Both the position numbers and the translations under genes were made by a program. The notes beneath the pieces were generated by a model. That model ran no database searches, was not told the DNA's origin, and was given only the letters and a program-made list of their open reading frames with translations. A stretch of DNA of 64,000 bases from Liolophura sinensis (taxonomy: Eukaryota; Mollusca; Polyplacophora; Chitonida; Chitonidae). Location of the stretch: positions 28,367,764 to 28,431,763 of the forward strand of contig NC_088306.1 in NCBI RefSeq assembly GCF_032854445.1, given 5' to 3'. This document shows positions 10,281 to 48,345 of the stretch, one piece after another. Within the stretch, counting starts at the first letter, position 1. Every line of letters starts with the position of its first letter.

Positions 10281-13200
10281 ATGAAGAGGAGACAAGATTT
10301 GGACACTGATCGCGGATGGGCATGGGTCGTCGCATCAGGTGATACTGGAAAAGATTTTATTTATTTATTTATTTATTTAATTATTTAATCATTTGATTAT
10401 TGTTTAACGTCATTCTCAACCTTTTTTTCAGATACGATGGTGATAATTTTTTTGTCTAAAGCCGTTAAGATTTTTTTTCAGTTAGGCGATGGGTGAAGGA
10501 AACCAGAGTGTCTGGGATAGCTCTATAACGCGAGTTATTAGCATGTGGCATACGGATATGCACGCCGCATTATGGAAAGACACGTGATCTTAATGAACGT
10601 TAGACTACAGGAAAGGTCAAAGTTTGTCAGTATGTCACTAGTTAACGCGGACACATATCTGTCGTGTTTGTAATCACAAATAATATCGGTAATCCATTAT
10701 CATCCGGTTCATGCCGTTCTTATTAGAGATCTTTAGTTGTAACTTCTAACTTCAAACTTGAATTAGCTTACGTTTGCATAAGCTAACGTTCTTTGCATAC
10801 CACTTATCTTCCATCAGTTTAGTGTATATGTACATATCTGTAGGTCACACGTGGGGAAGTCCGTCACTAGTATGCCAAAGCTCGTGGGTTTACCCCTGAC
10901 ACTCTGCGTTCCTCCACCCATAATCCTGATCGTCATCGTATAAATGACCATGACATTACAAAAATATTAAATAAATTGTTATCTGTACATGAATACCTAC
11001 ACTTACATGGATGTACTGGATATTCACAAAATTTCTGGAGGACGTTATCCCATGTTTAACTTAATAAGTTTCAACATCATCATAGCTTAGCTCATAAATA
11101 ACACCCACAGATTTTAACCAGTTTCAAATTCATCATAGCTTAGCTCATAATTAACACCCACAGATTTTAACCAGTTTCAAATTCATCATAGGTTAGCTCA
11201 TAATTAACACCCACACATTTTAACCAGTTTCAACATCATAATAGGTTAGCTCATAAATAACACCCACAGATTTTAACCAGTTTCAAATTCATCATAGGTT
11301 AGCTCATATTTAACACCCACACATTTTAACCAGTTTCAACATCATAATAGCTTAGCTCATAAATAACACCCACAGATTTTAACCAGTTTCAAATTCATCA
11401 TAGGTTAGCTCATAATTAACACCCACACATTTTAACCAGTTTCAAATTCATCATAGGTTAGCTCATAATTAACACCCACACATTTTAACCAGTTTCAAAT
11501 TCATCATAGCTTAGCTCATAAATAACACCCACAGATTTTAACCAGTTTCAAATTCATCATAGGTTAGCTCATAATTAACACCCACACATTTTAACCAGTT
11601 TCAAATTCATCATAGGTTAGCTCATAAATAACACCCACAGATTTTAACCAGTTTCAAATTCATCATAGGTTAGCTCATAATTAACACCCACAGATTTTAA
11701 CCAGTGTCAACATCATAATGGGTTAGCTCATAATTAACACCCACACATTTTAACCAGTTTCAACATCATAATAGGTTAGCTCATAATTAACACCCACAGA
11801 TTTTAACCAGTTTCAACATCATAATAGGTTAGCTCATAATTAACACCAACAGATTTTAACCAGTTTCAACATCATAATAGGTTAGCTCATAATCAACACC
11901 CACACATTTTAACCAGTTTCAAATTCATCATAGGTTAGCTCATAATTAACACCCACACATTTTAACCAGTTTCAACATCATAATAGGTTAGCTCATAATC
12001 AACACCCACACATTTTAACCAGTTTCAACATCATAATAGGTTAGCTCATAATTAACAACCACAGATTTTAACCAGTGTCAATATCATAATGGGTTAGCTC
12101 ATAATTTCCACCCACAGATTTTAACCTGTTTCAACATCATAATAGGTTAGCTCATAATTAACACCCACAGATTTAACCAGTTTCAACATCGGAATAGGTT
12201 AGCTCATAATTAACACCCACACATTTTAACCAGTTTCAACATCATAATAGGTTAGCTCATAATTAACACCCATACATTTAACCAGTTTCAACATCATAAT
12301 AGGTTAGTTCATAATCAACACCCACACATTTTAACCAGTTTCAACATCATAATAGGTTAGCTCATAATTAACAACCACAGATTTTAACCAGTGTCAACAT
12401 CATAATGGGTTAGCTCATAATTAACACCCACAGATTTTAACCAGTTTCAACATCATAATAGGTTAGCTCATAATTAACACCCACACATTTTAACCAGTTT
12501 CAACATCGTAATAGGTTAGCTCATAATTAACACCCACACATTTTAACCAGTTTCAACATCATAATAGGTTAGCTCATAATTAACACCCATACATTTAACC
12601 AGTTTCAACATCATAATAGGTTAGTTCATAATTAACACCCACACATTTTAACCAGTTTCAACATCATAATAGGTTAGCTCATAATCAACACCCACAGATT
12701 TTAACTAGTTTCAACATCATAATAGGTTAGCTCATAATCAACACCCACACCTTTTAACCAGTTTCAACATCATAATAGGTTAGCTCAAAATTAACCTCCA
12801 CAGATTTCAACCAGCTTCAACATCATAATAGGTTAGCTCATATTTAGCCCCATTAGTTCTTTCGTCATTATCTCATGTGACACTCTTAATTACCACCAGT
12901 TCCATCCTACAGCCAGACAGCTTCTTCGTCATGCCATGTCGTCTTATATTTCAGACCGACAGGTCGTTCACTCTTTTCCTACATCATAATATTTTATCTC
13001 ATGTTTTACACCGACAGGTCCTACAGTCAGTTCCTACATCATGACATGTTATCTCATATTTCACATCAACAGGTCCTACAGTCATGACAGTCAGTCAGTT
13101 TCTCCTTCATAGTGTGTTATTTTATATTTCTCACCCACAGTCAGTCCCTTCATCATGGCATGTTATATCATATTTCATACCTTCAGATCTAACAGGTCTT

Positions 13201-16200
13201 TCAGTGTCTTCGTCATTCCATGTTATTTCATATTTCACACCTGTCGGTGTTTATACAGCCAGTGGCTTCGTCATGCCATGCCATGATATTTCATAATCCA
13301 TACCTTCATGACTTACAGTCAGTTCTTTCGTCATGCCATGTTATTTCATTGTTCATACCTTCAGGTTTTGCAGTCAGTGGCTTCGTCATGCCATGATATT
13401 TCATAATCCATACCCTCATGCCTTACAGTCAGTTCTTTCGTCATACCATGTTATTTCATTGTTCATACCTTCAGGTTTTGCAGTCAGTGGCTTCGTCATT
13501 TCATGTTATTTCACATTTTATATCTTCAGGTCTTACTGTCAGTTCTTTCATCATGGGAGGATTCGTAAAAGCGTTCGGTATATTTTTCGCAGAGTTTTCA
13601 GAGAAATTTGAAAGCTCGGCATCAGCCACGTCTCTCATAGCCTGCGTCCGCGCCACCATGTTTACGTTTGTAGGTGAGTTTGGGTTTGTCTTTTTATATC
13701 TTTTTTGAAATAATATTTTGTATTTGGTAATACACGAGACCATTCTAACCATGATAAACTTAAACTCAATATACTTTTTTAATTTTATGAATTGCGACGA
13801 GGCCTGAATTGCCAAGCCTGCACAGAGAACCTGTGAAGATGCATTTTGAACTTTGATTGACCTTGATTGAGGGTGGAATGTTTTATTTGGCTTATAAAAC
13901 ACAGCCCAGAGCTTAATAGCATTGATCGCTTTAAACCACATATCGATGACACAAGTTCTGAAAAGTATAACCTTTGATTTATCACACCAGGGAACATCGC
14001 CGTTTTCCCTTGTGGTGTGTGAATGCCGGCATGTTTTGACGCCTAGGTGTATAATTTATGAATTCGGCTCTTGTTTTCAGCACCACTGGCTTCGCTATTA
14101 TGTGACCGCTACTCAGAGAGAAGCGTCTTGATGCTGTCAGCCACTCTCAGTGTATCCGGTTGTTTCCTAGCCGCATTCGCTCAAAATATGGCGACTGTGA
14201 TTGTGGGCGTTGGAGTGTTAATGGGTGAGTACATGTGGCTAAGAGACATTGATCTAGATAAAAGTGTATTTGACAACAACAAACTGTGAGACAGCTGACT
14301 CAAACACAGGCGATCTCGCGTTATTAAGTCTCGTGAGATCTCCGGTGTTTTAGTCAGCTGCCCCAAATCTCGCAACTACATGTACACACTCTTACCAGAA
14401 ATTTGTCTAAATTTCTGCATGAGTCAAGTACATTGCTATTTATTTATGCTTTTAAAGACGACAGCATAAATTTGTTTGGGTTCCTTAGATGTTTGTAACG
14501 AGCTTAACACCAAACGCTGATTTCACTTTAATAACCAGCCGCAATGTATCGAGAGTTACCTTAATACGTTGCTTAGTGTTTTCGAATCTTTCTTATTTGA
14601 AGGTGCCGGGATGTCCTGCTTTTTCGCCCCCGTACAGATGGCGATAGGGAAATACTTTGTTCGGTTGAAATCTGTGGCAATCTCTGTGGTCTTTGGTGGA
14701 ATGTGCTTGTCTCAGATTGTCATGGCACCTATCATAGTGATTGTGCTGAGAGAATTTGCACTTCAAGGAACCCTCATTCTCTACTCTGGATTGCTACTTC
14801 ACTTAGCTGTCGCCGCAGCTCTCGTATTTCCACGCGACCTCGAAGATGCCAATGACCAGGTTCCCGCTGGATCCGACAAGGCCACAGAAATGACGGATTT
14901 AAAACTGTCAAGCCAATGCGAAGCTCAACATATAGAGACGAATCCAGCTGATCTGAACATGCAACCCCCCGTCCAGAGCCTCCTTTCAGTCAGTGAATCT
15001 ACTTACATGGTTGGGAAAAGTAACGACAGTCAGCAAAACCCTCAAGTTCGCTTTGTTCAGAATCCGACGACAAATGTTATTTTGGCGTCAAACAGACGTT
15101 TATCGGCTTCTTTTCGAGGGAAGCTCCAACGATGCCCCAAGTGGACGAAGTCATTAGTACGTGCTCTGGATCTATCTTTAATTAAAAACAGTCGCTTTAC
15201 TTTATACGCCTTAGCGCAGTGCTCCGCTCAGATTGCTTTCATGAACATACCGGTGTACCTGTTTCCAAGGGCGGAAGATTACAGGGTTTCCAAGGAAGAC
15301 GGCGCACTTCTTTTGACTATTATGGGGTGCACCGATTTGTTTGCAAGAGCCGTCTTCGGTATATTGGGGGACGTACAGAAAATCGGACCAAAGTTCATAT
15401 TTACCTGGGGGGCAGTTTTGTACGGAATGTCGGCGGCTGCCTTGCCCTTTACCACAGGTTTTGCTGGAATGAGTGTCGTGTGTGGGTTTTTGGGTCTGTT
15501 CGCTAGTACAACCATTGCCCTGAATATGCCCATCCTCGTCGACATGGTTGGCGTAAGAAAATTAGCCAAGGCTATAGCGTTGACCAGTTTCATATCGGGA
15601 ATCACGACAGCAGTTGCCCCTCCATTACTAGGTCAGTTCGGGTAAATACATGGACTATTCTTGAGAACGACGTAAAGCACACATGAAATAAATAGATAAA
15701 TTAATTGATAACAATAACAATAACAAAAGCGTATACTGTGAAATGTGTGTACGTCCCTTGGGCTATGGCTGGGTTTGTCCAGTGGCTATCGGGTAAAGGG
15801 AAGTCACTCTGCGGGTTCATTTAGTGCATTTCCGTACATGTGAGTTCAGTACATCTCGTGGTCGAGCGTGTGGGGTTGTAGGGATAGAGGGATGGAGTGG
15901 GGTAACTTATCTAGCTCTGCAAGACGGAGACATAAATAAATAGGTTGAGTTAGTTCTTGTACGAGTAATCTAACTCTCTGTAACACAAATATGAATATAA
16001 TGTAAGGAAATGTAACAATTTTCTTGAGAGATAGTTATAACTTACTCCCTGTAAAATCTACGTCTTATGTCAATGTGTCAAAAAACTCCATATCATCAAC
16101 AGCCATATGTTCGCACATTATTGTTTGAATATATACACAAATAACAGTTGTATGATATTGAGTCACGCCTTATTTTATAGCAATTAGTCAACATTATCGA

Positions 16201-31600: not shown

Positions 31601-34600
31601 CCAATTTAATGTGCCCACAGCACAGCAGTTTGAGTAATACTATACCAGTGACGTTTAATAAATTGCGATAAACTCATTTTACCCAGTACTGCTAGAGCCG
31701 TAGTGCAGGGTCAGGGGCAAGTGGGTTGCTGCTTTATAGATATTGTCATGGACAGTCACAATAAACGTCTAAAAGAGGTGGATTTCTTCTGCGATATCAC
31801 TGTGAGTATCTTGAATTGTATAGGGAGACAACACACTGTTTGGCAAACACAGACATTTATTTATTTATTCCATTGGAGTTTTACGCCATACTCAAAAACA
31901 TTTCACTTAAACGACAGCGGCCAGCATTACGGTGGGTGGAAACTAGGTAGAGCCCGAGGGAAACCCACGACCATCCGCAAGGTGTTGCCGGACCTTCCCA
32001 CTTACGGCCGGAGAGGAAGTCAGCATGAGCTGAACTTGAACTCACAGCGACCACATTGGTGAGGGGCTGCTGGATCAATGGGGTGTACTGTTATGATACT
32101 CCACTCGGCCACAGAGGCCCCCAAACATGGATACGATACCTCTGAACATCTCTCTCAAAGAGACTCCTATATTTGTGTTCGACCTGGAAATTGTTCACGG
32201 CCTAAGTTTCGAAATTTAAATTGGATGTCATGCGTAGAATATCGACTGTCTTCTATGAATCACTGAAAAAATTTACTCTTGCATGTTAAAACCTTTATGT
32301 TTTATTTGTAAAACATTCCCTTGGGATATGGTTGTTTTGGGCATTTGTCCTGTGATTATCGACTTGGAGTACCCCTTTACAATTGTATGAGTGAATTTCG
32401 AATGGTGACTAGGTGCTGTCAGTTCCGACCAATTATCAGCTGTTACAAATTTTTTCCTGGGATATTACTTTGTCATTTCATTAAAATTTATAATCAGGAC
32501 AAGTGGTCAGCTCGTGTCCGCAGAGACTTCGCTTAGTTATCTTGTACAGGGTTTTGGGGTCAGTTTGTTTCAATCTACAGTTTGCACATGCACCCGTGAA
32601 TTGACTTTTGGTCAGTTTGTTTTAGTGTAAACTTTACACACGCACCTGTGAAATGACTTTTGGTCAGTTCGTTTTAATGTACACTTAACACACACGCACC
32701 TGTGAAATGGACTTTTGGTCAGTTCGGTTCAATCTACACTTTTCACAGGCACAAGTGAAATGACTATTGATCAGTTCGGTTTAATCTACACTTTTCACAG
32801 GCACCTGTGAAATGACTATTGATCAGTTCGGTTCAATCTACACTCTGCACACGCACCTGTGAAATGACTTTTGGTCAGTTCGGTTCAATCTACACTTTGC
32901 ACACACACCTGTGAAATGACTTTTGGTCAGTTCTTTTTAATGTACACTTCGCCCACGTGTATTTTACGTGTCTCTTACAAGTTACAATTCTCATATATTG
33001 TTTCAAGGGTTATTAGTTAGTTTGCTTCAATGTACATTTTCAGAAAAGACCTATGCTTTTCCAGGAATTTGGAATCCGCCTTGTATTGTTTTCAGGGATC
33101 ATGGTAGGATTGTTTCATTGTACTGACCACACACCTATTTTGAATCATATTTTTGGTCAGATCGTTTGAATGCACACTTCGCACACGCACCTGTGAACGG
33201 GCTTTTGGTCAGTTTGTTTCAATTCACCCTTCGCAAACGTATCTTTTAAGCATTTTGGTCAATCGTTTTAGTCTACTCTTAGCACATGTTTTACACGTTT
33301 CCCAGTTCGTTTTGGGTTAGTTTGTTTTAATGTACAACTCCGTATGAAGGCCTATACTTTTTAGGAAATTTTCAATTTACTATCATCTCATGTTTATCAG
33401 AGATCTTCATCAGTTCGTCTCAATATGCATGTATTTTGCACACGTATCTTTTTCAGTGTGGTTAGCCAGTTCGTTTCAATGTACATTTCACCGTTGTCTT
33501 CGGCAGGTTTCTTAGTCAGCTCGTTTCTGCTGGGAGGCTTCATCAAAGTCTTTGGTGTTTTCTTCGCGGCATTTGCCACAACCTTTGAAGCTTCGGCGTC
33601 CACAACGTCATTAATTGTCGGAATTAGAGCTGCCATGTCTACAATCGTGGGTAAGTCTTTTTGTGCTTTGATTGATTGATTGGTTGATTGATATTTTAAG
33701 ATGTTCATAAGAATCTTTCATGTGACGGCGCTCAGATTTATGGTTTGGGAAAACGGGATGTTTGGTTACTGAAACATACACGATTAAACTTTTTGGGAAT
33801 ATATACCCTAATAAACATCTTCGCTCAGGTTTTTGGGAAAGAAAACAACCACGAGCACTCGTCCTGGCAAGAATGGCATATTATTCACTCAGGCACATCT
33901 TGGTTGTTGGTTCAAATGTTTATCCCTTTTGGCATTTTTCTTTGGCGAAGATTTCCGAAGACAGTTACTTGAATGACATGATCGTTAACACTTATCATTT
34001 ATGCGCGATCTATTCTGATCAGGATGTCAAAGAGTCTTTTTGGCCTTCTCCCCAGTTATTCCACAAGAATGACAAATTCTTAACCCAAGTACTAACTACC
34101 CTTTTTTGTTACGTGAGTGAAGTTAAACTGTGGTTAGCAGTTGGCAGTTAGCTATTCAACAAGTCCTTATTTCTATAAATTATATATTCGCCTATATCCC
34201 TATATTAATACTGCAACTACAGCCATCATACTTGGCGCATTTCAATTGACAATTCATGCGATCTAATACGTCATGCCAATGATTCCCGATTCTGACACCA
34301 AGGGGCGCTTCTGTGAATAGAAGTCTGGTCCATATCTCCATAAATACTGCGCCTACAGACATCATACTCGGTACATTATTAACTCTTACTGCGGGCTATC
34401 ACGTCACGCCGATGATTCCCGATTCTGACACTAGGGGGCGCTGCTGTGAATAGCAGTCTGAATAGCCGTCTGGTCCGTATCTCCATAACTACCGCACCTA
34501 CAGACATCATACTTGGTACATTATTAACTCTTACTGCCGGCTATCACGTCATGCAAATCATTCCTGATTCTGACTCAAGGAGGCGTTTCTGTGAATAGCA

Positions 34601-37600
34601 GTCTGAATAGCAGTCTGGCCCATGTCTCCATAACTACTGCACCTACAGACATTATAAGGAGGCGTTTCTGTGAATTGCAGCCTGAATAGCAGTCTGGCCC
34701 ATGTCTCCATAATTACTGCACCTACAGACATTATAAGGAGGCGTTTCTGTGAATTGCAGCCTGAATAGCAGTCTGGCCCATGTCTCCATAATTACTGCAC
34801 CTACAGACATTATAAGGAGGCGTTTCTGTGAATAGCAGTCTGAATAGCAGTCTGGTCCGTGTCTCCATAACTACTGCACCTACAGACATTATAAGGAGGC
34901 GTTTCTGTGAATAGCAGTCTGAATAGCAGTCTGGCTCGTGTCTCCATAACTAATGCACCTACAGACATCATACTTGGTACAATAAAGACACTTAATGCGG
35001 ACTATCACGTCGTGTCAAAAATTTCGGCGTAAAACACCAATCAAATAAATAAATAAATCTTAAGTTTATAAATACTTTATTATGCATATATGTGTTTAGA
35101 GGGCTGCGTTTTTCGTAACATTTGTACCAAAATTTATCTGTTTGTTTCATTTGTGTCTTACGCCATACTGAAGAATATTTCACTTATACAACTACTGTCA
35201 GCAATATTATGGAAGGAAACTGGACAGAGTAGGGGGAAACCTATGACCTTTCGCTGGGTGCTTCAAGGCCATTTAAGCAAAGAGTTTTCTTTAGAAGTTT
35301 GCAAGGGAAACTTTCACACCTGACTCCTTCAACTCGCCAAATTATGATGTGATCTTGACAGTTCTAAAGGAATCCAGAGAGAAAATGTCTTTCGATGTGT
35401 AAGACGAAAAATGAACCCAACCAGCTGAGATGACAAAGTGTCTGATGTACAGTCTCATCAGCAGATCGTATGGTAAAGAAACGATCGGTAAAACTGGGGG
35501 GCCCGAGCAAGGCTGTCGCTTCTGCACGTGCAATCCTTCTACCTGTATATAAAGGGAGTGTGATGAAGATGTAAATTAGAGGTTGCTGTATGAGAAAGCT
35601 GCATTTTGAGACGTGATGATTCTCTCAAACGGACATAAATGGGAACGTGACTTGAGGTTGTTGCTGTACAACAAAATTGGTTAGGTTAGATTTTACTGCT
35701 GGTTAGTTCAAAGCAATCTAGATTTTAAAATCGTGTTAAACAGCCTTGTACGTATGGTTGTGGGTGGTATAAAACTTTTATACTAATAACTAGAAAATAC
35801 AAATTTACATTATTATTTTTTGTTCCTTATATAACTTTAACCCACTTACAATGAGTGCATCTCGTGAACCCGGATCTGATTTGATTTTTGTGTTGGCCTG
35901 AGAGCTTACAACATATTTTTACATCACCCTTATACTCTCGTGCATAGACAAAGATGACCTATTATAAAAGCATTTGAACTTTTTGTACGTAACATAACAA
36001 TTTCACAGTTGTACATATAATTTACGCATCTTGTTAATTAAAATTTGCAGACAAAAACTTTATACTGGGTGATGAAATGTTAGGATTTGCTTATTCGCTG
36101 ATGAAACTGATGTTTAACGTAGTTTGAAGGCTTTGTCATTCATTGGTTCTATCCCACGCCTGGAAGAGGTGACCTTTGACACCATTCCTTAACTCATCTG
36201 CATTATTCGTTTACAACTATTTATACATGAATGTAGTAAATATTATATAAAATAACACAGGCCGAAATTTGGTTGGCATTCATATTGTTCTCCTTTAAAG
36301 TGAAAAAGATAAAGATGTCGATGTTGGGGAATCCTTTTCGACTCTCAACAGAAATAATTACGCCCGTATTTATACATGCTGTGAACAGAATTATTAAGAT
36401 GTGCACGTTTTCAAAAGCTCAACACTTTTTATTATAAGATGATAACAATGTCAAATAGCAATTGCATTAAATTGTTGTAACGATCGACGCCCTTTAAATG
36501 GAGTATGTTTGAAGACCATTGTCATTTGACATTCCTTAAAACACACGGCAACAAATAGTCATGTTACTAATTGAAATGAAGCTCTGTATGACATTTTATT
36601 GGTTTTCAAGATCGAATGCATTGTTTGGTTCACAAGATGGAGTTTACAAGTTTACAACAGTTTAATTCTAAAAATCAATGGTATTTCAAAATTCTAAATA
36701 CTTAAGATACGTGTACATTTATGGGTGGAAGGCCGTTGGTAGTAACGATTGAAAACTTTTGAATCATTTAACATAAAAAAAAACTTGCAGCATAAAAAGC
36801 AAAACCAGAGCATCGACGACAGTGTGATATAAAATTAGTTGGCAAATATAGCCACGCGTAACCGGTGAAATTCGGCCTCTTGTCAATTTTCTCAGTCAGT
36901 ATTCTAACTGCATCTTCTGTGAATAGCAGACTTAATAGCAGTCTGGTCCATATCTCCATAAATACTGAACCTAGAGACATCATACTTGCTACACTTATAG
37001 CACTTAATGCGGACTATCACGTCATGTCAATAATTTCCGATTCTGACACCAGGGGGCAAATCTGTGAATTGCAGCCTGAATAGCAGTCTGGCCCAAATCT
37101 TCATAAATACTGCGACTACAGACATCAAACTTGGTTTAAAAATGACACCTAATGCGGGATATCACGTTATGCTAAAAAAAATCCTGTTTCTGACAGCAGG
37201 GGTGCTTCTGTGAACAGCAGTCTGAATAGCAGTCCGGCCCATATCTCCATAAATACTGCACCTACAGACATCCTACATGGCACATTAATGACACCCTAAT
37301 GCGACGGGGCGAAGAGGGATTACAGAGTTTTTTTCTGATTGGCTATATTGGGCTTGATATAAATATTAGGTATGGAAGATTTGTTTAAGAGTGATGAAGG
37401 CTAGGAGATTTAAACCAGGAAGCCCAATGTCCACTGTCAGCCATTTAGCAATTCTCTCTCCTTCTAACCTATTTAAAAAGGTGTTTATTAATTTTTATTC
37501 TATAGAAAATGTATTTTAATTGAACAATATGTTTCAGATAGATACAAACAGGCTCTAAGTGGTTATCCAACACAACTTTGACAATCTAAGAAAAATTGCT

Positions 37601-40600
37601 TGAGAAATCTTTAACGTCCGATGTTAGGTGACGCCACTCTAAAATGTTGACCAAGGAGTAAACTCCGCTGATTACCGACTATGACACCTGAACTAATATA
37701 CCCTAATGTGAGGTCACACTGAAATGTTTACCGAATTCTCAAGACACGCACACAATTTGAAAAGCTCTACAAGCCATTATTGTCTTACAGAAAATATTTT
37801 TTTTTAAATAATGAACAGCGATACAGACAAAATAGTGTATATTTGGTTCGGCGTCAGTATTCTCAACTTCCGACGTTGAGAATACATACTTTTTACGTCA
37901 ACTTTAAACTCTACTGTCAACTAGCTTTAACCCCTTCACAAATAAGCTTTAGGATGATGTCCCACTGAAGTGTTTACAGAACTGTTAATGGATCTTTTAA
38001 CCGGCGTTTCCGCCTTAACCAATACAAAATGGCGTGAACTTCTTTGACGTCAAATGACTGCTAACGTCAGACTGAGTTGATAACTAGTCTATTAACAGAA
38101 CTGTTTACTGGTTTTAAAGACTTAAAGGAAAGCATTTTATACAGACACACACTGTTCATACTTGGTAATTAAACACTTAATTTACACTTTCCAAACGGTA
38201 CAAAGTTGCACCATGAATTTTGACATCCGACTCCAAATGGCGTCAAAATAAGCAGTTAACCCTGTTAACTGATCTGTAAAACGGCATTAACGCCTTAAGT
38301 AATACACAAACAGATCTCAGACTTCATACATAAACATCACCTTACAAGGCCTACAAGTCATTCCTACAAAAAAAGTAGAAAAACTAACCGGAGTTATCAC
38401 CTTGACCAATAGACGTAGTGATCTCTTTAAAAGATAAACACCTCTTTTTTAGCCCTACAGAACGCTGTTAAACGTTTTAACGTCCGATGAAATCTGAAAT
38501 CACACTAAATTGTTAACCGAATTTAAATTCTTAACAAAATTGTTTACTGGTTCAGATTTTCAACCAATTCAAAAGGGACAAACCATTACTTTGTCATGAA
38601 AACACAAATTTATATAAACAAAAATGGTACCAATACAGCTACTTGATATTAAAACTTCAATTTGCAAACCCATACAAAAGGGTGTGAATTGCTTTGACGT
38701 CCAATTTCTGCTAAAGCCAGACTTGCGTTTTTAATTAAACTGTTAACAGAACTATTCACCGGTTTAAAAGACTTAACCAGCTCAAAAAAATAGTTATAAT
38801 TTCCCTATGGTAAATAAAAATCTCTCATATAAAGTATTACAGATACACATTGTTCAAACTTGATAATTAAACACAACTTTCCAAACGTTAAAAAATTGGT
38901 GCCAAGAATCTTGACATCCAACACCAGGTGGCGTCAAAATTAGCGGTTACTAATAGCCCAACTGTTGACTGATCTGCAAACCGGCATTGATGCCTTAAGC
39001 ATTAGACATACAGATCTCAGACTTCATACACAAATATCACATTGCAAGCCCTACAAATCATTTATTTCCTACCAAAAAAAATACTAATTTCTTATGAAAA
39101 TAATATAACCGATGCACATATATTTTATTTGGTGATTACAGCGCACTTTAAGAGTCGTTCAAAGCGCTATCAGTGGACTTTGCCTCGACGTCAGATGACG
39201 TCAAACTGAGAGTTTAATCCAACCATTTACTGAACTTTAAATGGTTTCAGCGCCTTTACCAGTATGTCGTAAGGTGACATCACGCTGAATGGTTTACACA
39301 ACTAATAATTTACCTCTTAACAGGAATTGTCACCTGTATTAGTAAACGTAAAGATCTCATGCTTAATACCTCGTTTCCAGCCCAACAAAACGCTTTCAAA
39401 GGTTAAACGTACAATGCCATCTGATTTATTTATTTATTTAATTGGTGTTTTATGCCGTTCTCAAGAATACTTCACTTATACGACGGCGGCCAGCATTATG
39501 GTGGGAGGAAACCGGGCAGAGCCTGGGGCAAACCCACGACCATCCCCAGGTTGCTGCAGACCTTTCCACGTACGGCCGGAGAGGAAGTCAGCATGAGCTG
39601 GACTTGAACTCACAGCGACCGCATTGGTGAGAGACTCCTGGGTCATTACGCTGCGCTAGAGCCCTAACCGACTGAGCCACGGAGGCCCCACAATACTATC
39701 TGAAATCACACAAATTGTTAGGTGAAGGTTTTCACAAAATTGTGTACTGGTTTAAGATTTTCAACCAATTCCAAAAGGGACAAACCTCTAATTTTTCAAT
39801 TTAATTTAAAAAATATTACCAGGTATGTTGTCTGTAGGTGCAGTATTTATGGAGATTTGGGCCAGACTACTATACAAGCTGCCATTCACAGAAGCGCCCC
39901 ATGGTGTCAGGATCGGGAATCATTGGCGTGACGTGATAGCCCGCATCAGTTGTTATTAACGTACTAAGTATGATGTCTGTAGGTGCAGTATTTATGGAGG
40001 TACGGGCCAGATGGCTATTTCAGGCTACTATTCACAGTAGCGCCCCCTAGTGTCAGGATCGGAATCACTGGCATAACGAGATAGCCCGTATTAGGTGTCA
40101 TTAATGCACCAAGTATGATGTCTGTGCGTGCAGTGTGAATGGAGATATGGACCTGACTGCTATTCAGACTGCTATTCACAGAAGCGCCCCCTATTGTCAG
40201 AATCAGAAATCATTGACATGACGTTATATCCCGCATTAAGTGTTATTAATGCACCAAGTATGACCTCTGTAGGTGCAGTATTTATGGAGATATAGGCGAA
40301 AAAATATTTCATAGAAATAAAGACTTGTCCCTGTTGAATAATTAACTGCCAACTGCGAACCGCAGTCTAGCTTCATTGACATTTTGTGTTTTCCACGTGT
40401 ACAGTTGAGGATTTCTGATGACCTAATTTAAGACGCAGAGCTTTTAAATCTAACTAAAAATTGTCACAGCCATTAGCTGTGACAAGCAGCTCTATAACAG
40501 AACGGTGTTGTTGTTGGCAGTGGTGTACTTGTTTATGAAGATCATAGATGAATTTTTTTAAATGCGCATGCGTCACAGCCTGTCACCATACACAGGTCGG

Positions 40601-43600
40601 TGCTCTTGTTTTACTCTGTGTTGTAGCTTTTTATTCTCACAAATTCTTCCTGTCTTCTCTCTTTCATGTATACAGCGCCGCTGGCGGCCGTCATGTCGGA
40701 GCGCTACTCAGAGAGACTGGTGCTCATTGGTTCGGGCGTTTTCTGTTCGTTAGGCGCCCTTGTGGCCGCCTTCGCCCCGAACATGGAGATGGTTGTATTC
40801 GCAACAGGCTTCATCATGGGTATGTCTGGAATCCCTTTAATGACACTGGACTGCAAGCTAGTATTTTATTAGGGGTATCTTGCATCTAGTAGTACCTAGC
40901 TAATCATACCATATGCATCGTACTAACGGCTGTAGTAGGTTTCTCTGTCCGGGCTGATGTTAGCTGTTCCATAGTGCATCGTGAGATTGTTGGGACACGG
41001 GCGCACATATGCACACTAAAAATTTCATTCTTTATTTGGTAAGTAAGGTTATTATGTTGATTATATTAAACATGTGAAAGTTTACAGAGTAATTTGGTAT
41101 ATGTTTTCAATGAACACAGGTAATTTAGTGAACATGACTTTGTGTTAATATTAAGTGTAGAAAGCCGGTCAACATATAAAAATGTTTACTGTATTTAAGA
41201 ATTTATTTATTTATTTGATTGGTTTTTCGCTGTACTCAAGAATGTTTTCACTTATACGACGGCGGCATTATGGTTGAAAGAAAACGGTCAGAGGTTGCTG
41301 ACGTGTTTCAAGTTCACATAGTAAATGCCACATATTTACTTTGTTTACGCAAATTATTTTGTATGAATGTATTTCAAAAATCAAGCTACTCAAGAAATGT
41401 AGAGCGTAAAATACGACAAAGAGAAGAAAGTTATATGTTTACATCAGATAGAAGATGTTGTTGACTCGAATTTAGGCTTGTAGATAACTGGCGTCATTAG
41501 AACATGCTGGAACAATAAATAACTGAAAACATATACGTAAACACATAGTAAACCACACTCCAGATCCTGTTTGACGTGTACCTTTCAATCAGTCGTCTTC
41601 TTCACAAATATGATCTCCTAGCACCTCGATAATTATTTGTTTTGTTGTTGTGTGACACCATATTTCAGAATTTTCGCTAGTGCAACGATAATTATAATCG
41701 TACGATGTTTGTATAGAGCAAGTCACATTGCTCCTCCAGGTTTTATCATAAACTGCCCGACTCAAGCCTCTTACTGAATTGAACTGCGAACTTTAGTCTT
41801 ACCGTAAAGTATTCCGAATACTTACAAACGTGAGTTACATTTTAAATTTTCTTGATTGTTCTTGTATGTATTAATGTTCACAGGAATTGGTGTGTCGTCC
41901 TTTTTTGCGCCCGTACAGATCGCCATTGGGAAATACTTCGACAAACGAAAATCTATAGCAATTTCTCTGAGTTTTGTTGGCATGTGTTTTGCACAAATTG
42001 TCATGGCGCCCGTGAATATACTTTTTCTAGAAACTTACGCCCTTAGAGGAACATTAATGCTATACGCTGGGTTTATGTTGCATATCATCGTGGCAGGTGC
42101 GCTTGTTCAACCAATCAAAGCATCCAACAGAAGTCACCTGGACCAGAAACCGGAACTTCAGGGGAGAAATGCGCTGTCCGTGCTAGAGCTGGCATCGGTC
42201 CAAGATTTGTACGCCAGTCGCGAATTCATCAAAACTATGAACACAAACGCATCAAAAGTTCAATCTAGACCTTTAGCCAAGAGGACAGATAACGAATTCC
42301 TCCGTAGCGATGAAGAGACTGCACCAGTGAAATCCGATGGTGAAGGGGTAGACCTTTCGGCAACTAGCAAAGGCCATATCCTCAAACAGACCAAAGATCT
42401 CAAGAAAGCCGCAGCCGATGTGTACGCATTTTGTGTTCAATGAAACACGTTCTAGACTTCTCGCTCTTAAAAATTCCAACATTTACTATGTACGCATTCG
42501 CCCAGTGTTTGTCTATCGTAGCTTTCAACAATGTTCCAGTGTATCTGTTTCCCAGGGCGGAGGATTACGGCTTGACGGCGAACGAATCCGCACTACTTTT
42601 AACCATTACGGGATGCACGGACTTGCTGTCGCGGATTCTGCAGGGTGTATTCGGCGACGTGAAGGGAGTCGGTCCCATGGTTGTTTTCACCGGTGGAATT
42701 TTCTGCTTCGGAATCTCCACTGCTGCCATTCCGTTCACAACGACTTTCCTAGAAAATGGCCATTGTCAGTGGCTTCCTGGGATTGTTCGGCAGCACGACG
42801 ATTGTGTTAAATATGCCGATTCTGGTGTGAAACAGTGGGACTTGGAAACTTGCCCAAAGCAGTCGCTCTTACCAGTTCTTCAACGGAATTACCAACGCTG
42901 TGGCGCCACCACTTTTAGGTAGGTTCTCTTGGCAGCAGAAATTACGAAAGACTTATAAGTCGATTAACATGACATACGGAAATAAGGTTATAACGAGCTG
43001 TACAATTACGTGTAACTCTGTTGCTGATAGGAAAATGTATTGCACTGGTGTTCATACGTGGAGGAAACCGGAGTGCGCTTCGGGAAGCGGTAGATCCAGG
43101 GCTAATCCTGGGTCGTGCCACACGTAAGGCCTTGAAAGAAGAAGTTGTAACTTCCTCACTTGACAAACAATCAAACAGTCGTCTTTGGGTAACTCGTAAA
43201 ACTCTTTTCCGCCTGCATTAGGACGGTTCAAAGTTGATTTATCCATTCTTTGTTGACCTTATTTGTTCTTTCATTCATTAAGTCACATTTATCGCTGTAC
43301 ACGTGTTCATAAAACATATGTGCACACGCACTGCAACGTCACAGGGGAAAACGATGCGTTCAATCTGTCATCTGGACCGTATGTGTAGCTTTTCCTGCAT
43401 TCTCCTATTTGTGAAATCAACTTCATACTCAGATACAAAAACGCCATCGCATACATATAACGGGTGGGCATAAAAAATGGGCCGTACTTTGACACTCAAT
43501 ATCTCCGAAACCCTCCTGCGTCAGCTTTTAAAAATTTACACACTCAAAAGCCATTATGTTATAAATATACAGACGAAACCTCAGTTTCATCGTTTAAGAT

Positions 43601-45214: not shown

Positions 45215-48200
45215 ACATCAGACAGAATAGTGTGTAACATGTCTACTCGTGCCTTGTGGCATTATATGCATGGACCAGGGAAGGAACAAAGCATTTCGAT
45301 TTAACCCTTTCGCACATACTATTCCCTTCCGGATGATATGGCGTTGTACGACTCTTCTGAACTCCCGCAATTTTACACAGCTCTCTGACTTAGTCAGACT
45401 CAGATTTCCTGCCCTGGTCACCATGAAGTCGACAAGGAAATCCATAATTCACCGCGAAAGTATCGAACAGTTCCCTAGCGGTTAATCTCTGTCTGGGTTT
45501 TGGTTGGAATAGCTTGTGCGTACATGGTGAAGTGATCCGTTAGGACCAAAATACCGCTGTAGCCTCCTTTGGTACTTTTAATAGATAATCAATACAAACT
45601 TACTCCATTGGCTGGGTAGTGTTAACTCTCACAAGGAAGGCAGCTTTATTAGGTGGCTTAGACTTGTACTGCTCACAAAACCTCCCTGTTAACATCAGTT
45701 GTCAACCAGGCCAGTGAAACCGGGTCATCACCAAGTTCAACGTCCGAGAAACTCTCTGGTGACCCATGTCGTGATGTAATGGCTGCAAAACAAGGTCCCG
45801 AAATTTTGTAGGTTGTATCAACTGTCGTGTGGTACACTCCCTGACTGAGATTTCACGGAACGAAATATCGTTGTCTAACACCAGCTTGTCCCAGTCCTTC
45901 AAAACCTGATGCACCCTGGCTCAGTAGGCCTACACTACTGGGAAGCCTCTGTCCTCTTTTAGATACCATTGAGAATTATCTGAAAGATGAGGTAGACACA
46001 CCTAAGAGAGGGTTTATACTTACCTCGGTTTCTTCATTCACACAGAACCCCAGACACTCCACAAATGGGCCTACAACCGCCTTCACTGTTGTATGGTCCA
46101 CCTCGCGAGTGTCTGGATGTCGTGATAGCTCTTCCGCATCACGATGTTGCGCACCTGACTTGTATACCAAATCAAAATCATAAATCCAGAGTTCGGCGAG
46201 ACAGCGATGTCCAGTTTAGCGGTAGTGGGGACATACGTCAGCGGATTATTATGTTGTTTTAACGGTAAACCGATGACCACAGATGTTCTTGCGAAATTTG
46301 TCGCAAATAACCCACTTCACCGCACCAAACACCCCCACGCCCCTAGTGGGCTGAGGAGATTCGTTCCGCCTGTTTAAATCACCTGCTGGCATATACAACG
46401 AGTCGCTCTATCCCGGCTTGATTTTGATATAGTACAGTCCGGATACCTTCCGCGCTGGCGTCAACATGAAGTAGGAAAAGCAGTTTGTAATCTGCTTAAA
46501 CCTGAATCGGTGGGGAGGTCAGCCCACTAATCAACGCATCAAAAACAGACCGGTGTTTTGGACGCCACACCCACTTCGTATTCTTTGTGGATCCCTCTGA
46601 TTTTCCTGCAAGGAAATTCTTTAACGGTTAGCAATATGTGCATAGTTCAAGATAAAACGGCGGTAGTACCCCTCGAACCCGAAAAACTGAGCTATTTTGA
46701 GTTTCTGGGCTCTGACCACCGTTTAAATGCCTCTATCTTATTAGGATCAGGTGGACTATGCCCCAAACATTTAACCTCAATTTTGAAAAAAAGTCACATT
46801 TGGAAGATTTAATTATAGGCTGTGTTGCTTAAGGCGAATGTAAACGCTTTCATGCCGAGAGAAAGCACTATAATATTATCAATATACACCAAACATTCTC
46901 TAAGATCTCGGAAGCATTTCTCCATTAACCTTTGAAAAGCAGATGTGGCGTTCGTGAACCCAAATGACATACGATTAAAACCCTCGAGAACCCACAGCAT
47001 AAACATCTCTGTTCTTCCTTGAACTGAGTTTTCTATAATCTATGCAAAACCTCATTGAATTTTCCGGTTTTTTAAGTAAAAATACTTCAGAGGAAAATGG
47101 ACCAACTGATTTCCGGATGGCACCAATCTCCAAGATTTCCTGTAAATGCTTCCTTACCTGCTGAATCAATGCTGGTGGGATCCATCTGGGTGCCTCTTTA
47201 AACGGGGTTTCATCACGAAGATTGATCTCATGAGTATCTGTTGATGTATAACCTAGATTGAAAGAGTCTTGAGACATGATGCTGTACCAACGATTTAGCA
47301 AAATTCTCTAACCTGATCTTTCCTCTCCAGTCTAAGTTTGTCATTCGGGTCAGATTCTAGCTTGGCGTTCCGAGAATTAGGTATTAAATCAGGCTCCTTT
47401 GGAACACAAGGGAAAACAAACGAAACAGCCTGAAAAGCTCACAACTTATCATTATTTGGAATTGTTACTGCTTTTGAGGATATGTTACAAATTGCACTGT
47501 TCCCGGTCGGTGCATATTCTACAAGCTGAGCTAACAAGCAAATTACTGTTTAACCACACATTCCTATGTTCCACAATAACAGGGTGAGGCACAGTTTGAT
47601 GACTCTTAACCAAGCCTTTCATGCTTACCTCCTGATCTGGTTCATTGGTCTAGTGTTTGTGGCCCTAACAATACCCACTAGGCTATCAGTTTGTATAATG
47701 TTAACAGCCCAACCCCAAGGACCATAACCAGGGTTACCTACATGTACCGGGACAATACCCACTAGCTTGTCAGTCTGTAGAATTTTGGCAGCCCAGCCAC
47801 AAGGACCATAACCAGGGTTACCTACATGTACCGGGACAATACCCACTAGCCTGTCAGTCTGTAGAATTTTGGCAGCCCAGCCACAAGGACCATAACCAGG
47901 GTTACCTACATGTACCGGGACAATACCCACTAGCCTGTCAGTCTGTAGAATTTTGGCAGCCCAGCCACAAGGACCATAACCAGGGTTACCTACATGTACC
48001 GGGACAATACCCACTAGCCTGTCAGTCTGTAGAATTTTGGCAGCCCAGCCACAAGGACCATAACCAGGGTTACCTACATGTACCGGGACAATACCCACTA
48101 GCCTGTCAGTCTGTAGAATTTTGGCAGCCCAGCCACAAGGACCATAACCAGGGTTACCTACATGTACCGGGACAATACCCACTAGCCTGTCAGTCTGTAG

Positions 48201-48345
48201 AATTTTGGCAGCCCAGCCACAAGGACCATAACCAGGGTTACCTATCCCCCGGGCAAACAGCTTTGTTACCTTGGTTCCTACTATCACGGGAACAGTGCTA
48301 TTGTAGACTGTATCTGGAAGCACCAGAGCGCGAGCCACAACACTT
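45215..48345 (-). mobile_element. Decayed Ty3/gypsy LTR retrotransposon, protease to integrase
   Basis: The minus strand carries, in the expected order from 48345 down, a protease-like end (VPVIVGTKV), an 84-bp tandem insert, reverse transcriptase pieces at about 47300-46810 (FCIDYRKL; FGFTNATSAFQRLMEK; active-site YIDN where YIDD is usual), an RNase H end at about 46150 (a RDAEELSRHP version of the usual DALSR block), the zinc-binding part of integrase at about 45910-45700 (LHHDMGHQR, TRFHWPG) and an integrase core remnant near 45580-45350. Many stops and shifts break the frame, and no clear LTR pair is visible. Dead element, about 970 bp beyond the gene B stop codon. Confidence 0.82.
47690..48245 (-). 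repeat. 84-bp in-frame tandem repeat within the gypsy polyprotein region, about 6.5 units
   Basis: The unit includes TACATGTACCGGGACAATAC, CCACTAGCCTGTCAGTCTGT, AGAATTTTGGCAGCCCAGCC and ACAAGGACCATAACCAGGGT. On the minus strand it encodes a 28-residue unit (GNPGYGPCGWAAKILQTDRL, then VGIVPVHV). Units are nearly identical; only the outermost ones differ. They interrupt the protease-to-RT linker of the retroelement, so the 237-codon frame is transposon sequence, not a host gene. Confidence 0.93.

Follow-up and report, generated by a model that had tools for sequence, protein, structure and literature searches.

The closest described counterparts of the structure analysed here are the mirages of amphioxus, in which an intron/exon boundary has undergone a minisatellite-like tandem duplication; they have been reported for the globin genes BflGb6 and BflGb9, as well as for Adh3, TnC, and PGBD5 (PMC3087553, PMC3902484). 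In BflGb6 the mirage unit combines the 3' end of an intron with the 5' part of exon 2, and many of its units, though not all, keep the AG/GT signal, the central units being homogenised while those at the edges are not (PMC3087553). The same authors report that regular splicing is left undisturbed (PMC3087553, PMC3902484). A different case is that of a potato gene, in which a tandem duplication across an intron-exon boundary was associated with intron gain (PMC4974935, accessible part), while the 27-bp array in intron 3 of an abalone TSSK1-like gene appears, from the text available, to be an ordinary intronic minisatellite (PMC6905558). Among the matches listed in a search of titles and abstract openings, no further boundary-spanning minisatellite from outside the lancelets was recognised; subscription papers lay mostly outside the scope of this search, and we make no claim of absence from print.

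The array that we describe lies in intron 1 of a gene, called gene A, within a window of 64,000 nucleotides, the whole stretch of DNA that was analysed. As in the mirages, insofar as the accessible accounts describe them, its tandem units span the boundary, the true boundary constitutes one unit, and splice signals are kept in part of the units (here AG at 23 of the 45 unit ends that precede the real acceptor, five of them in AG/GT form). It differs from them in scale, being longer than the globin arrays: it has 46 units against 6 and 3 in two haplotypes of BflGb6, and its units measure about 53-55 bp, compared with 150-160 bp in BflGb6 or 10-72 bp in Adh3. Unlike the mirages so described, it belongs to another gene family, and a paralogue probably carries a second array at this site. 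The potato gene resembles gene A in that the stretch duplicated there extends from an intron end into the beginning of the following exon; in potato, however, a single duplication is reported to have made a new intron, whereas gene A has many copies within an old intron and no new one. With the abalone gene the likeness is limited to the presence of an intronic array of short units, since that array, in the text available, is not described as holding a splice site or exon bases, unlike that of gene A. Boundary-spanning minisatellites are thus already known from amphioxus, and the gene A array constitutes a further case, possibly from a new animal group: the mirages were described in cephalochordates, in the literature as accessed, and the host of gene A is probably not a lancelet.

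Gene A and Its Paralogues

The protein joined from exons 1-4 of gene A matches the Pfam family MFS_1 (E=4.6e-33), and its best match among solved structures is MCT1 (6lyy, E=7.8e-33). Judged from this predicted protein, gene A is an SLC16/monocarboxylate-transporter-like member of the MFS transporters in an animal genome. Two additional SLC16-like genes are present in the window, gene B on the plus strand and gene C on the minus strand (table 1). Exon 2 has the same length of 144 nt and the same phase in all three genes, which supports placing the real gene A acceptor at 13529 and indicates that intron 1 is old. Intron gain by tandem duplication, considered for gene A, was rejected on the same grounds. 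The residues encoded by the head of exon 2, (G)LTVSSFIM, align with both paralogues and with MCT1, the LTVSSFIM segment falling in a conserved N-terminal part of the latter that we take to be its first membrane helix. The intron directly following exon 2 of gene C carries a 25-bp array of its own (5-681), about 180 bases from the donor of that exon.

Table 1. Positions of the gene A and gene B arrays and of the surrounding exons in the window
Feature	Position	Strand	Remarks
Gene A, end of exon 1	10281..10338	+	Nearest in-frame ATG considered, start codon putative; donor CAG/GTGATA
Gene A intron 1, 34 tandem units of 52-53 bp	11058..12856	+	Wraparound alignment; mean likeness 91-93% at lags 1-15
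Gene A intron 1, 12 tandem units of 51-62 bp, mostly 55	12857..13529	+	Last unit ends exactly at exon-2 acceptor
Gene A, equivalent of a unit at the boundary	13501..13555	+	Intron tail of 29 nt including the AG, followed by exon head of 26 nt; putative source
Gene A, exon 2	13530..13673	+	144 nt, phase 1; first 26 nt part of repeat
Gene A, exon 3	14081-14224	+	
Gene A, start of exon 4	14603	+	
Gene B, array and degenerate copies	32558..33506	+	52-bp array at 32558-32957, copies up to exon-2 acceptor; probable counterpart of the gene A array
Gene B, exon 2	33507..33650	+	144 nt
Gene C (SLC16-like), exon 2	1004-861	-	

Structure of the Array and Its Relation to Exon 2

Wraparound alignment resolves 46 tandem units in intron 1 that continue without a break into exon 2, in agreement with the preliminary description, which had counted about as many. 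They form two zones, hereafter called the 53-bp and the 55-bp zone, the latter adjoining the exon. The 55-bp zone is diverged, with a mean likeness of 66-75% among units 37-46, and contains a 110-bp higher-order repeat in which the real boundary is included. The unit is composed of about 29 nt corresponding to the intron tail and 26 nt corresponding to the exon head.

The evidence for a relationship between the units and the exon is clear for the 55-bp zone. The exon bases 13530-13555 are identical to the 55-bp consensus at 24 of 26 positions, with a local score of 44 that was reached by none of 1000 dinucleotide shuffles and by none of 3835 background windows taken from outside the arrays; the alignment of the bases coding LTVSSFIMG with the unit, initially proposed from inspection of the sequence, is thereby borne out. 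Compared with the whole intron, the exon head scores 38 (maximum of 29 in 200 shuffles), while a probe made up of 10 bases of intron and 30 of exon scores 47 against the 1.5 kb upstream (maximum of 24 in 60 shuffles). The matches of individual units to the exon head, expressed as best gapped identity and thus as raw values without a chance level, amount to 21-23 of 26 positions for the four units closest to the exon, 17-22 for the preceding eight, and 16-19 for the units of the 53-bp zone.

The expectation that all units would align with the boundary above shuffled controls holds for the 55-bp consensus and fails for the 53-bp consensus set against the exon head alone: its score of 14 was reached by 400 of 1000 shuffles and is not significant, and in forced register 41 of 2000 shuffles reached the score. 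Direct homology of the 53-bp consensus to the exon head alone was consequently dropped. The same consensus is nevertheless related to that of the 55-bp zone (1 of 1000 shuffles) and, when compared with the whole boundary segment of 55 nt, gives a score of 8 that exceeds the shuffle maximum of 7 (0 of 300). Hence, the 53-bp zone is tied to the boundary mainly via the 55-bp zone.

Boundaries of the three genes, comprising seven acceptors and six donors, were probed against 1.5 kb of flanking sequence with 60 shuffles each. Exon 2 of gene A stands out clearly (0 of 60 shuffles) and exon 2 of gene B is borderline (3 of 60), whereas for the remaining 11 of the 13 boundaries 11 to 53 of 60 shuffles reached the score; the probes for exons 3 and 4 of gene B and for both donors of gene C have edges that are 1-2 bases off, a minor shift for 40-base probes. 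The edge of gene B exon 3 is likewise 1-2 bases off in the comparison of consensus sequences with exon heads, with little effect. No array was detected at exon 2 of gene C by this probing (13 of 60 shuffles).

Splice Signals within the Array

The claim that the intron carries many duplicated 3' splice-site segments is sustained by the AG dinucleotides already mentioned, which occur at 17 of the 34 unit ends in the 53-bp zone and at 6 of the 11 upstream unit ends in the 55-bp zone. The ends of the 53-bp units, many of which were described at first as sharing one ending, are in fact of two kinds, AG in one half and AC in the other 17. AG/GT steps follow positions 12962, 13017, 13072, 13364, and 13474, and lie in one register with the real acceptor at 13529, as had been noticed in the preliminary description, except that the second step was placed there at 13016.

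Splice-site scores were computed with vertebrate position matrices. On this scale the acceptors of the 53-bp zone range from -4.7 to 1.6 and those of the 55-bp zone from 0.3 to 4.2; in the uniform 53-bp units, the acceptors are weak or lost. The real acceptor scores 3.9 and is the fifth of 180 intron AGs by score, the top two lying upstream of the array. Strength alone does not single out 13529, because the decoys at 13364 and 13474, both at 4.2, slightly exceed it. The donor of exon 2, TAG/GTGAGT, scores 6.5 and is the best of the GTs scored in intron 1 and exon 2.

Could the array be a functional splicing device, in which duplicated acceptors, or units with both AG and GTTAG, remove the intron stepwise or act as regulated decoys? 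The AG/GT steps at five upstream unit ends are of the kind that such a device would use, but as donors their GTs score -2.2 to -4.4, values matched or exceeded by 22-43% of the 3992 GTs of the strand. Recursive splicing through these steps, which had been put forward as a possible consequence of the array, is not supported by these scores and was rejected. A second point in favour of a device is that the 34 units of the 53-bp zone contain 30 GTTA donor-like sites, mostly TAG/GTTAG(C/T) and located, by reading the alignment, 28 bases after the unit start. Those listed score 0.8-1.6 as donors, and two ranked sites fall in the top 5-7% of GTs. Against this stands the absence of AG from half of the 53-bp units, together with the low acceptor scores of the rest. 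We consider a device of this sort improbable.

Units of the 53-bp zone that possess both an AG and a GTTA site resemble tiny exon-like cassettes, a look that we take to be the product of chance and homogenisation.

The earlier suggestion of a variable N-terminal loop fares no better. None of the 23 unit-end AGs upstream gives an open frame into exon 2, and the encoded segment aligns with a conserved part of MCT1; protein diversity through unit-end acceptors is thus not supported. Only 2 of 149 AGs in 11051-13529 are open into the exon, namely 13487 and 13529, the former being in frame and adding 14 codons if used. The closed frames are no sign of selection, because intronic sequence gives early stops anyway.

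Gene B and Other Features of the Window

A degenerate array probably occupies the corresponding splice site of paralogue B, which lies 20 kb downstream, as suggested by the resemblance of the repeats there to the exon head of that gene. Its 52-bp consensus matches the head of exon 2 at 14 of 16 bases, a score that was reached by 3 of 1000 shuffles and by 18 of 3835 windows, and the motif recurs at 33411, at 33467, and, within the exon, at 33517 (spacings of 56 and 50). The broader flank probe of this exon is weak, with 3 of 60 shuffles and a best match 991 bases upstream, and the regular units, inspected by eye, are without an AG at the matching place. Between genes A and B the intron tails show some likeness (a score reached by 48 of 2000 shuffles), and the consensus sequences of the 55-bp array of A and the 52-bp array of B show none (190 of 1000 shuffles). 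Descent of both arrays from one ancestor and separate duplications at two homologous boundaries would leave the same picture.

In exon 4 of gene B (41884-42926) the reading frame is shifted between 42748 and 42756 and meets an in-frame stop near 42828, and exon 1 of this gene was not found by motif search and tblastn. Gene B may therefore be a pseudogene, or the sequence may contain an error.

Several other repeats were observed. A tandem family of about 145 bp forms three arrays in one intron of gene B (34268-34972, 36914-37272, and 39818-40297), the third apparently in opposite orientation from a reading of its consensus. An array of 84 bp, equivalent to 28 codons, extends over 47668-48244 with both strands open along its full length, and gave only weak Pfam matches, none with a passing stretch. 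The minus-strand reading frame 46975-47307 resembles a polymerase fragment of a gypsy-type retrotransposon, and had no Pfam match. One dispersed repeat has five copies with no more than three mismatches (19207, 27757, 31875, 39444, and 52905), where none is expected by chance; it is presumably one known from lophotrochozoan genomes, and its presence suggests that the host is not a lancelet. Scans for Rfam families and tRNAs found nothing in the window.

Origin of the Array

What kind of event could have produced such an array at the start of a conserved exon? Probably, it is a minisatellite of mirage type, in which a boundary-spanning unit was duplicated in tandem and expanded within the intron. 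A segment of about 55 bp across the 3' splice site of intron 1, with about 29 nt of tail including the AG and 26 coding bases, would have been duplicated tandemly, and slippage or unequal exchange would then have multiplied the copies in the intron, homogenising them locally. Close to the exon the units have diverged, the distal 53-bp units are nearly uniform, and half of the latter have no AG; this distribution would be consistent with an old duplication of the boundary, followed by later expansion and homogenisation away from it. The exon copy itself may have been kept by selection on the protein.

The direction of this process deserves consideration, as the preliminary description had left it between two options. 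The first, amplification from the exon boundary, stands. The exon is most likely the source of the array, because its head is conserved transporter sequence that continues where the match to the unit stops. The second option, that the boundary is maintained by the array, does not agree with an exon that goes on as conserved sequence past the units. A broader form of it would have the array as the older element, from which the start of the exon was recruited, or would have the array preserve the likeness of the boundary through gene conversion. The near identity of the exon head with the four nearest units fits such a view, and conversion towards the exon is conceivable for the silent sites of the latter; but the residues of the exon head are common to gene B, gene C, and MCT1, the conserved exon extends beyond the unit, and gene C has the exon with no array detected there. 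We regard this alternative as very improbable. Chance similarity or an assembly artefact is scarcely credible, for even if the window is full of tandem repeats (45 rows in the repeat listing), some of which are expected near exons, the shuffle and window statistics stand against it, and the units differ by many scattered changes, the 55-bp zone being well diverged.

If the array is a mirage-type minisatellite derived from the exon, it would represent a tolerated tandem duplication of a 3' splice site, in which the real site is chosen by exon definition. Position 13529 would win over its decoys as the only copy followed by the body of exon 2 and a strong donor, and mis-spliced messages would mostly be destroyed. 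The likely effects of the array are on intron length, with some splicing noise.

Significance for Intron Evolution

The array makes it possible to ask how a single 3' splice site is selected by the cell when dozens of near copies are present, and bears on how introns grow without breaking the gene. Its gradient from strong to dead acceptors, along one and the same array, offers a natural series for studying exon definition and the competition among splice sites. Should the host prove not to be a lancelet, the phenomenon would be no oddity of cephalochordates. A bolder proposition, which we advance only tentatively and consider rather doubtful as a whole, is that, outside cephalochordates, two SLC16 paralogues lying next to each other either acquired or inherited boundary arrays at the corresponding splice site, and that the units which became amplified are those with dead acceptors. 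Were this true, it would amount to a ratchet: expansion would be open only to copies that are silent in splicing, and the 3' splice site would become a general motor of intron growth.
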